Source of the DNA: Streptomyces sp. NBC_01210
Lineage (GTDB): Bacteria; Actinomycetota; Actinomycetes; Streptomycetales; Streptomycetaceae
Reading direction: 5' to 3'
NCBI RefSeq assembly: GCF_036010325.1
Contig: NZ_CP108549.1
Span: forward strand, 5,022,001-5,086,000
Length of the DNA: 64,000 nucleotides
Shown here: one piece after another, positions 1-1,734 of the stretch
Position numbering within the stretch: position 1 is the first letter of the stretch
How the letters are laid out: every line of letters starts with the position of its first letter
Made by a program: the position numbers and the translations under genes
The notes under the pieces: generated by a model
Seen by the model: the letters and a program-made list of their open reading frames with translations, nothing else
Database searches by the model: none
What the model was told of the DNA's origin: nothing

Positions 1-982
1 AGCCTTCGTGCTCCAGGATCCCCGACTGTGCGATGAGATAGCCGAGTTGGGTCCGGCTGCCGCTGCCCAGCGAGGAGCCCAGCTTGGCGATATGGGCACG
101 GCAGGTACGGACGTTCATGCCGAGCCGCCGGGCGATGGCCTCGTCCACATGGCCCTCGACCAGCAGCTTGGCGATCGAGCGCTGGACGCCTGTGATGCCG
201 TCGAGCGGGGGGCCGTAGGAGACCTGCTCCTCCCACGGGATGCCGTGCAGCCAGAACTGCTCGAAGACGCCGACGAGATACTCGACGATTCCCTTGTGCC
301 GTAGCTCAAGTGCCGAGAGCCTGTCGCTACTTGCCGGTATGAACGCCACTTTCCGGTCGACAATGATCAGCCGGTCGATGATCTCCTCGAGCGTGCGCAC
401 CTCCACGCCGGACGGGCCGACCTGCTCCATGTAGGCCAGGGTGGCCGGGTGGTGGCGGGCCGTGTGCTGGTAGAGCGTCCGCATCCGTACACCGCGGTCG
501 ATCAGCGGCTCCACGCGTCGCAGCGCCTTCTCCAGGATGTGCGGCTGTCGCCCGCTGCCGGGCTGCACCGTGAGAAGCTCCTCCGAACACTCTGCGGTGA
601 CCTGGTCAAGGGTTGTGTTGATGCGGTTGAGACCCTCGAGGACGGTGATCCCTTGTGGGACGGTGGAGTTCTGAGCACTGAACGCCATGAATGGCTCAAG
701 AGCATCGGTCAGAGCGACAGTTCGACGTCGGCGCTCTTGGATCTCCCGCTCGATGGGGTGTATCAGCTGTGTCAGCGCAGTGGTCGGCGGAACCGGACGG
801 AGCCATTGAGCGTCGTCGGGATCCGGATGCAGTAGGGCGAGATCGAAGAGACAGGGTGTGGGCTCCGCCTCTGACCGGGCTATTCGCCCGGTCCGCAGAG
901 CGGTGATGTACAGATTCTTCCCCGCCTCGCACAGCTCGCCGTCTGCGTGAGGGTGTCCCGTTTCGCCCCCCTTCGATGACAT
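1..982 (-). CDS. LuxR-type HTH regulator with TrmB/PLD-like sensor domain (3' end cut by window)
   Basis: The ORF reads leftwards from ATG at 982, preceded by GAGGGGG five bases upstream, and runs off the window edge after 327 codons. The N-terminal two thirds resembles the phospholipase-D-like effector region of TrmB-type regulators, including the segment RLIIVDRKVAFIPAS near residues 210-225. The end is a LuxR-type helix-turn-helix: GITGVQRSIAKLL, then DEAIARRLGMNVRTCRAHI. There is no phosphoacceptor domain, so it is probably a stand-alone, ligand- or peptide-responsive transcription factor. It is divergent from the repetitive-peptide operon with a gap of about 125 bp, which suggests it controls that operon. 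The ligand is unknown and the C-terminus is not visible. Confidence 0.85.
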   Translation of the reverse strand, partial: MSSKGGETGHPHADGELCEAGKNLYITALRTGRIARSEAEPTPCLFDLALLHPDPDDAQWLRPVPPTTALTQLIHPIEREIQERRRRTVALTDALEPFMAFSAQNSTVPQGITVLEGLNRINTTLDQVTAECSEELLTVQPGSGRQPHILEKALRRVEPLIDRGVRMRTLYQHTARHHPATLAYMEQVGPSGVEVRTLEEIIDRLIIVDRKVAFIPASSDRLSALELRHKGIVEYLVGVFEQFWLHGIPWEEQVSYGPPLDGITGVQRSIAKLLVEGHVDEAIARRLGMNVRTCRAHIAKLGSSLGSGSRTQLGYLIAQSGILEHEG

Positions 983-997
983 GTGCACCCCCTCAGG

Positions 998-1014
998 CTC
1001 CTGCATTACAGGAA
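998..1014. promoter_or_regulatory. Small inverted repeat between the regulator and the peptide operon
   Basis: TCCTG (999-1003) and CAGGA (1009-1013) are separated by CATTA, about 16 bases upstream of the regulator's ATG and 95 bases upstream of the peptide start. It is a plausible operator for the divergent LuxR-type protein, but the arms are short and could occur by chance. Confidence 0.3.
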
Positions 1015-1082
1015 CATGATGCCTGCCGTCGCTGGTGCAAGCGTTCGGAGTGAGACATCGTCTTATGCGCGGGGGAGGAGGA

Positions 1083-1148
1083 ATGATCAAAAGAGGTGGA
1101 GATCACCCATGTCTAGGACGCTTCGTGCTCTTTGTGCTCTTGCCATAG
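1083..1148 (+). CDS. Possible 21-codon leader ORF overlapping the peptide gene start
   Basis: ATG at 1083 follows a very strong purine-rich ribosome site (GGGGGAGGAGGA) and opens a 21-codon frame ending in TAG at 1146-1148. It overlaps the first 40 bases of the repetitive-peptide gene in another frame. The product (MIKRGGDHPCLGRFVLFVLLP) resembles nothing I know. It may be a translational-coupling or leader ORF, or the ribosome site may simply serve the ATG at 1109. Translation is not established. Confidence 0.3.
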   Translation: MIKRGGDHPCLGRFVLFVLLP

Positions 1149-1420
1149 CGGCGGCCGCGCTCGGTGCGGTGGCTTCCGGCGAGCCCTCCTGGGGTAGCTC
1201 TCCCGCCGGCGCTGTGACGGCAACCCCCGGCGAACCTTCGTGGGGCTTCGTTCCCGCGGACGCTGTGGCAGCAACGCCCGGTGAGCCCTCCTGGGGTTTC
1301 GTCGCAGCAGATGCGGCGCTTACCCCTGGTGAGCCTTCCTGGGGTGTAGCACCGGCGGCTGCCGCGGGCACTCCTGGTGAGCCTTCCTGGGGTGTCGCTC
1401 CGGCCCGCACGGACGCATGA
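1109..1420 (+). CDS. Secreted repetitive peptide precursor with five GEPSWG repeats
   Basis: This is a 103-residue protein. Residues 1-22 form a Sec-type signal peptide (SRTLR basic start, Ala/Leu core, LGAVA before the repeats). The rest is five exact GEPSWG hexapeptides at residues 24-29, 41-46, 58-63, 74-79 and 90-95, spaced 16-17 residues apart and joined by Ala/Thr/Pro-rich linkers; four are preceded by TP. The hexapeptide is invariant although its codons vary synonymously (GGC/GGT, GAG/GAA, CCC/CCT, TCC/TCG), which argues for selection on the peptide. The start was chosen for its ribosome site (GAGGTGGAG seven bases upstream). The stop overlaps the next gene (ATGA). It looks like a multi-copy precursor of a small signalling or modified peptide. 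I do not recognise a described family; function unknown. Confidence 0.85.
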   Translation: MSRTLRALCALAIAAAALGAVASGEPSWGSSPAGAVTATPGEPSWGFVPADAVAATPGEPSWGFVAADAALTPGEPSWGVAPAAAAGTPGEPSWGVAPARTDA

Positions 1421-1734
1421 CCGTTCCACCGGACGACCGGGTCTTCCGGCGTGAAATGGCTACGGCCTACCGATCGGGGTGGCATTTCATCGACCTCGTC
1501 ACGGCAATCCCCCACCGTGGCGACTCGTTGATGGTCACCCTCTTCGGGGAGCCGATCGTCGTGGCGCGCGAGGAGGATGAGGACGTCCGCGCGTATCGGT
1601 GCCTTCGCAGGCCCCGTGGGGCTCCGCAGCCCGTCCGCTGTGCCATCCGGTACGGCATGATTTTCGTCAATCTTGACCAGCGGGATCACCAGCTGGTCGA
1701 GCCCGACACCACCGCCACCCCCCGCAGTGCCTGA
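1417..1734 (+). CDS. Small Rieske-oxygenase-like protein lacking the [2Fe-2S] ligand set
   Basis: The 105-residue protein is translationally coupled to the repeat peptide by an ATGA overlap. Its layout follows the N-terminal Rieske domain of ring-hydroxylating oxygenases: GWHFIDLVTAIPHRGD (about 21-36), LFGEPIVVAREEDEDVRAY (42-60), a C..RRPRGAP segment (62-70) where CxHRG is expected, and PVR...GMIFVNLDQ (72-88). The second cluster loop (CPYHGW-type) is absent, and the first Cys/His pair is reduced to Cys with Arg/Pro. A normal Rieske cluster is therefore unlikely, and no catalytic iron domain follows. Candidate roles are binding, maturation or chaperoning of the GEPSWG peptide, inferred only from the operon. 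The family assignment is by motif reading. Confidence 0.7.
   Translation: MTVPPDDRVFRREMATAYRSGWHFIDLVTAIPHRGDSLMVTLFGEPIVVAREEDEDVRAYRCLRRPRGAPQPVRCAIRYGMIFVNLDQRDHQLVEPDTTATPRSA

Follow-up and report, generated by a model that had tools for sequence, protein, structure and literature searches.

A candidate peptide-pheromone circuit of Streptomyces whose repeated tetrapeptide word changes together with the divergently encoded TrmB/PLD-LuxR regulator

In Streptomyces sp. NBC_01210, a locus at the left end of a 64,000-nucleotide window (the whole stretch of DNA that was analysed, positions 5,022,001 to 5,086,000 of NZ_CP108549.1) is read here, with a probability of roughly 0.78 judged from sequence comparison, as a peptide-pheromone circuit whose peptide would be bound directly by the divergently encoded regulator. 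The evidence comprises the constraint on the precursor repeats, the species-specific words that these repeats spell, the co-inheritance of the genes, the co-change of the word with particular regulator residues, and a conserved dyad in the shared promoter region. A preliminary description had proposed a candidate peptide system made of an identical-core precursor, a divergent regulator and a truncated Rieske gene, and this proposal is supported as far as sequence allows.

The regulator gene (positions 2–982, minus strand) encodes 327 aa from a start at 982, its stop codon lying just beyond the window edge, and is separated by a divergent promoter region of 126 bp (983–1108) from the precursor gene (1109–1420, plus strand; ATG at 1109, stop at 1418–1420), which encodes 103 aa. 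The Rieske-like ORF (1417–1734, plus strand, 105 aa) begins at 1417 inside an ATGA overlap with the precursor stop, confirming the coupling noted earlier for the two genes; start codons were all rendered as Met in the scripted translations. To the right follow a pyridoxamine-oxidase-type ORF (1895–2341, assigned by eye) and then clpB, and dnaK, grpE, dnaJ and hspR lie to the left of the locus, outside the window, named by eye from their translations. Beyond these chaperone genes on the left, an IS30-type transposase-like ORF was also seen by eye in the same genome (L008, 634–1917).

The precursor and its repeated word

The precursor had zero family matches in Pfam and NCBIfam, and a protein search yielded 9 relatives at E ≤ 10. 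Its residues ~1–22 form a Sec-type leader, assigned by eye, by which it would be exported, and five copies of GEPSWG follow the leader at positions 1178–1195, 1229–1246, 1280–1297, 1328–1345 and 1376–1393 of the plus strand (precursor residues 24, 41, 58, 74 and 90). The 103-residue length, the spacing of 16–17 residues (17, 17, 16 and 16) and the synonymously differing codons were thus found just as first described. The hexapeptide as the core unit did not hold: the unit conserved between species is a tetrapeptide, [D/E/N]-x1-x2-W, of which GEPSWG is the version of the window's lineage. GEPSWG was rejected as a general core, since no more than 6 of the 392 genomes, counting the window's own, contained a doubled GExxWG-type DNA pattern, and in G297, one of the six, the reversed control matched as well.

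The dominant words of 176 unique precursor genes fell into 40 versions (EPSW 27, DSTW 16, EPTW 14, DSGW 13, and others), with as many as 12 copies per precursor, and the Asn form appeared in seven of these genes, which were without any D/E copy. The first 141 loci gave 133 unique precursors, of which 115 had more than one copy; the copies were all alike in 104 of these, and tetrapeptide pairs agreed in 845 of 862 comparisons within precursors versus 11,313 of 101,064 between them. Within precursors, the core positions had identities of 1.00, 1.00, 0.98 and 1.00, the residue after the core 0.72 and other positions 0.28 to 0.48; the motif search fixed the first position as D/E (or D/E/N) and the fourth as Trp, which forces the first and fourth values and leaves x1, x2 and the flanks as the unbiased positions. 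In a larger set, 916 copy pairs displayed 848 synonymous versus 45 non-synonymous nucleotide differences (0.46 versus 0.007 per site, with every difference in an amino-acid-changing codon scored as non-synonymous), and the codons at core positions 5–8 (D/E = 0) followed the opposite pattern with a ratio of 2.5. Since the synonymous sites of the copies have diverged and the amino acids are fixed, the identity is held by selection.

This bears on a reading in which the precursor is a low-complexity secreted protein, its copies resembling each other because they were duplicated or converted recently, and its link to the regulator being a matter of shared ancestry. The Ala/Pro/Gly-rich spacers and the variable copy number would suit it; the synonymous sites, which differ at many places around a fixed tetrapeptide and are far from identical, argue against recent duplication or conversion. 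In the pheromone circuit, the tandem copies would raise the signal yield, and would stay alike to fit one receptor.

The C-terminus lay exactly one residue past the last Trp in 42 of 175 unique precursor proteins (DTVWD, DSKWD, DSVWS, DTIWS and others), including 19 of the 33 single-copy precursors. The exported precursor would be cut into short peptides consisting of [D/E/N]-x1-x2-W plus one residue, in the window from five copies of the core EPSW within GEPSWG, and the peptide would re-enter the cytoplasm, probably through an oligopeptide permease. A peptide signal of roughly 655 Da is said to enter Streptomyces cells by BldK; identity with that signal was rejected, the computed [M+H]+ values being 621.3 for DTIWS and 632.3 for GEPSWG.

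Co-inheritance and co-change of the word and the regulator

In a draw of 392 Streptomyces genomes that included the window's own, 321 had both regulator and Rieske-like ORF, 4 the Rieske-like ORF only, none the regulator only, and 67 neither, as compared by eye between listings called at E ≤ 1e-95 for the regulator orthologue (321 genomes) and E ≤ 1e-12 for the Rieske-like ORF (325 genomes, an equal number being given by a second query). Of the four genomes with the Rieske-like ORF only, G245 had a regulator match at E 2.6e-94, G375 had regulator matches in pieces, and G063 and G261 carried short regulators (237 and 213 aa) in the stretches read. Among 20 genomes without the Rieske-like ORF, zero regulator matches above 41% identity were found (E ≤ 1e-50). 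The suggested co-occurrence of the LuxR-type and truncated Rieske genes was therefore nearly complete at the orthologous locus. Some distant regulator relatives have peptides and no Rieske-like neighbour that was found, so the Rieske-like protein is not a universal part. By protein search the regulator had 1764 relatives at E ≤ 1e-10, and the Rieske-like protein 167 at E ≤ 0.001.

We read 190 loci (80 plus 110 stretches, some repeated; the 80 being the best of 509 found and closest to the query) in addition to the window. In all 191, a divergent regulator match was located within 900 nt, and beside it a small leader-bearing ORF whose secretion is predicted by eye. The precursor end stood at −4 nt relative to the Rieske-like start in 107 of 176 unique genes, at +1 in 40 and at +5 in 14.

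The regulator comprises a weak N-terminal TrmB-like region, a PLD-fold central domain (~110–251) and a LuxR-type HTH (~262–323), which bears out the LuxR/TrmB-type assignment with a ligand-binding-like domain given in the preliminary description. A TrmBL2 profile match spans residues 7–259, in agreement with the fold match, and the central domain is folded like the sugar-binding domain of TrmB. The signal of the N-terminal HTH was weak, with Pfam TrmB found in 4 of 20 family members, the window protein not among them; the C-terminal HTH was matched by Pfam GerE in 19 of 20, in agreement with PDB and fold matches, the window regulator itself giving E 0.003, below the curated cut-off.

Regulators of at least 300 aa were obtained from 187 of the 191 loci and yielded 170 distinct regulator/word pairs, in which residue 136 of the central domain tracked x1 without fail (170/170): Ser was paired with Met136 (67), Pro with Leu136 (45), and Thr, Ile, Val or Leu with Val136 or Ile136 (58). 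On a tree built without the candidate pocket columns, the 22 branches with a change of x1 class, out of 338, were also the 22 with a change of residue-136 class (hypergeometric p 1.4e-32); among 241 regulator columns, the second best reached p 0.0014. The best other single column predicted the x1 class in 82.4%. In 18 cases two regulators shared at least 85% identity and differed in x1 class, and the 15 of these that were listed all obeyed the rule, as exemplified by DTHW and DSHW at 90% identity. An earlier comparison of regulator/word pairs was circular, with columns picked from the same data; the actual tests are the tree, the single-column, nearest-relative and close-pair comparisons, and the loci added later. 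Of 40 loci added after the rule had been fixed, 28 of 28 unseen and 11 of 11 already seen regulators obey it, the remaining locus having no regulator in its stretch. Five further loci obeyed it as well, namely two DPTW and two DPAW of a divergent lineage, all with Leu, and the DITW of G245 with Val. In total, the rule covered 203 distinct cases at the orthologous locus with zero exceptions, the later sequences being unseen but of related species. The repeats do not drift freely in orthologues, an outcome that the preliminary description had named as refuting; they are held identical within species, and their x1-class changes share branches with residue 136.

The second variable position was tracked by residues 153, 151, 143, 145 and 159. 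Residue 153 was Gly in 29 of 31 cases with Thr at x2 and Ala in 30 of 32 with Gly at x2, and for Ser at x2 it was Ala in 35 and Gly in 17, from which we infer a steric fit, small side chains of the peptide being matched with large ones of the receptor and vice versa. In partial correlations given overall distance, central-domain columns ranked top, some N-terminal ones followed lower, and zero HTH columns appeared in the top 25; the best regulator column reached 0.325 versus 0.08 for the best Rieske-like column. The peptide is accordingly proposed to bind the PLD/TrmB-like central domain, where residue 136 would fit x1 and residues 143, 145, 151 and 153 would fit x2. Of all the evidence for binding of the peptide by the regulator, the co-change of residue 136 with the word is the strongest.

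Shared ancestry alone does go some way, the nearest relative already predicting the x1 class in 149 of 170 pairs; the low-complexity reading nevertheless faces 22 of 22 class changes on shared branches and zero misses in the later loci, and we regard it as highly improbable. Co-change needs binding only and not secretion, and would be compatible with a private intracellular sensor, in which the regulator would bind the not yet exported precursor, and a cytoplasmic precursor would signify jammed secretion or folding stress without cell-to-cell signalling. The placement of the genes in a chaperone neighbourhood, between dnaK-grpE-dnaJ-hspR and clpB, speaks for such a sensor, which we consider unlikely; it leaves unexplained the diversification of words in step with the receptor (22 class changes) and the up to 12 copies per precursor. 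In the pheromone circuit, word and receptor would change together in each species, and the channels would thereby be kept apart.

The shared promoter and the Rieske-like protein

The promoter region between regulator and precursor was strongly conserved, and the overlapping 8-mers of GAACATGATGC each occurred in 155 of 155 unique intergenic sequences. Where TCCTG is present, GAACATGATGC lies within an imperfect dyad, TCCTG-N5/6-CAGGAAC; TCCTG was found in 159 of the 186 loci with the core, and CAAGAAC in five further loci. In the window the dyad, CCTG-N5-CAGGAACATGATGC (1000–1022), has a gap of N5, which is N5 or N6 in relatives, and it is predicted to be the operator of the regulator. The exact 5-gap pattern had a single match each in the window's genome and in G210. 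When four genomes were searched on both strands with ≤3 mismatches, 62 matches were obtained versus 64 for the reversed control, with relatives having 6 bases scoring as 3 mismatches owing to the 5-base gap of the pattern; without an excess of sites in these four genomes, no regulon was seen. A near-match recurring in three genomes sits inside long ORFs. The peptide-regulator complex would control the shared promoter region, and therefore the precursor together with the coupled Rieske-like protein.

In the Rieske-like protein, only the N-terminal part, 60 to 65 residues, matches Rieske oxygenases (5xbp, E 9.5e-5), and Cys62 and Cys75 were kept in 169 and 170 of 170 proteins, respectively; both His ligand positions, however, are Arg (Arg64 and Arg78, 170/170), so that the Rieske ligands C-x-H / C-x-x-H are missing, and in a wider set of Rieske-like proteins the cluster Cys were not universal. 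The C-terminus carries a conserved TPRSA tail. The match of the N-terminal residues is thus what the protein shares with Rieske ring-hydroxylating oxygenases, from which it differs in being a stand-alone protein of 105 aa with Arg in place of the His ligands and the catalytic domain absent. As a partner or enzyme of the peptide it was tried and rejected, because its 45 variable columns did not clearly change along with x0, x1 or x2 (lowest uncorrected p 0.02).

The several cores of the precursor, the translational coupling of the Rieske-like gene and the match of regulator to word would also suit antimicrobial or RiPP-like peptides, for which the regulator would be an autoinduction or self-sensing protein and the Rieske-like protein would take part in modification. 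Against this stand the loss of the His ligands and the lack of a clear co-change just described, and by eye no maturation enzyme or exporter was recognised in the neighbourhoods read, though a modifying enzyme may be encoded elsewhere; we judge such peptides improbable here.

Known systems, the S. coelicolor link and the wider family

The RRNPP pheromone systems of Firmicutes include Rap/Phr, PlcR/PapR, Rgg/SHP and ComR/XIP. As in these, a small leader-bearing precursor, here of predicted secretion, adjoins the regulator, the words are species-specific, and the short peptide is sometimes located at the precursor C-terminus (here the 42 of 175 mentioned above). Unlike these, the receptor is PLD/TrmB-like with a LuxR HTH instead of the TPR domain of RRNPP, the TPR family being absent from the Pfam matches of the regulator, the word usually stands in tandem repeat, and the phylum is Actinomycetota. 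The PLD-like effector-binding domain is shared with archaeal TrmB/TrmBL2, whose N-terminal HTH is weak here, whereas a C-terminal LuxR HTH is added and the ligand is likely a peptide, not a sugar. Yeast alpha-factor is likewise made from a multi-copy pheromone precursor, with identical cores and spacers in one protein (secretion being predicted in the present case), but the system described here is bacterial, with a four-residue core and a receptor that would be a cytoplasmic transcription factor. In the openly licensed literature we found no printed description of the system, which may exist elsewhere.

A link to antibiotic production comes from S. coelicolor M145, in which insertions in down-modulator genes reportedly including SCO3664 raise actinorhodin more than 50-fold, SCO2686 being on the same list; complementation restored 12 of 16 regulator mutants, the place of SCO3664 among them not being stated there (PMC6585502). 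SCO3666, SCO3665 and SCO2686 encode 394, 327 and 338 aa, respectively (PMC3282765, the first two in Table 1). The S. violaceoruber-type genome G246 has the order hspR, binding-protein-like ORF, LuxR-type gene of 394 aa, LuxR-type gene of 327 aa, regulator, precursor, Rieske-like ORF and clpB. This order and these lengths fit SCO3666 and SCO3665, so SCO3664 is the putative orthologue of the window regulator. The precursor beside the SCO3664-type gene of G246 ends SDTIWS. No peptide partner of SCO3664, SCO3665, SCO3666 or SCO2686 is mentioned in the available parts of the cited reports, and the terms SCO366, Rieske, clpB and hspR do not occur in those of PMC13118837. The complex would act, directly or indirectly, on antibiotic timing.

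Two further receptors, of the SCO3665/SCO3666 type and with Leu and Val at residue 136, adjoin the SCO3664-type gene in G246 (L199, L229, L234). Their own peptide was not found by the scan, and they could listen to other words. A regulator relative of 338 aa, the length of SCO2686, was also seen in G246 (L238), with a divergent small ORF ending DDSQWG.

For the wider family, relatives of the regulator were taken from Streptomyces and from further families of Actinomycetia, and their 84 loci were scanned for a small ORF with a leader and [DE]xxW. Such an ORF lay upstream in divergent orientation at 19 loci, upstream in the same orientation at 1 and downstream at 6, versus 0 or 1, 0 to 4 and 0 to 3, respectively, for seven control motifs. 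Five of the 19 (L225, L226, L228, L240, L243) are the orthologous locus or duplicate stretches, leaving 14, and most relatives among the 84 loci had no such ORF by the scan filter. The peptides of distant relatives are exemplified by QDPGWV, ADDKWD, DDSQWG and EEPGWS, and the residue-136 rule does not hold in these distant regulators.

Several variants were observed beside these. In family f26 (L316, L317, L322, L323), downstream small ORFs on the opposite strand contain DTSWG or DSSWG, three of them directly behind the leader, and the DSSWG locus has Met aligned with position 136. In G047, G050, G105 and G184 (L389–L392, L394–L397, L399–L404), three to four tandem receptors accompany a weakly matching Rieske-like ORF; the single-copy peptide of this lineage ends QQDPTWG or QQDPAWD, the first receptor has Leu136 and obeys the rule, and the third has Phe136. 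In G375 (L232), a regulator relative stands beside a divergent small ORF with GVIGWD and SVIGWD, a word without the acidic first residue.

Tentatively, and with the odds slightly against it, a large and so far undescribed family of peptide languages may be common to the Actinomycetia, in which TrmB/PLD-LuxR receptors would each be paired with an acidic-x-x-Trp peptide of their own, Streptomyces would diversify by matched changes of word and receptor at readable positions, and peptide-less tandem receptors (the SCO3665/SCO3666 type, and the three to four in a row in G047, G050, G105 and G184) would eavesdrop.

If the circuit is real, Streptomyces would possess a peptide communication system whose genes are present in 321 of 392 genomes and whose receptor class is unrelated to that of Firmicutes, with a residue-level code that is testable by single swaps. 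The species-specific word/receptor system may influence antibiotic production; it could explain the strong actinorhodin rise upon SCO3664 disruption, and synthetic peptides would be possible switches for antibiotic production. It would also be a natural record of how signal and receptor change jointly without loss of fit, and, from the related pairs seen in other Actinomycetia, a broader range of still unread signals would be expected.
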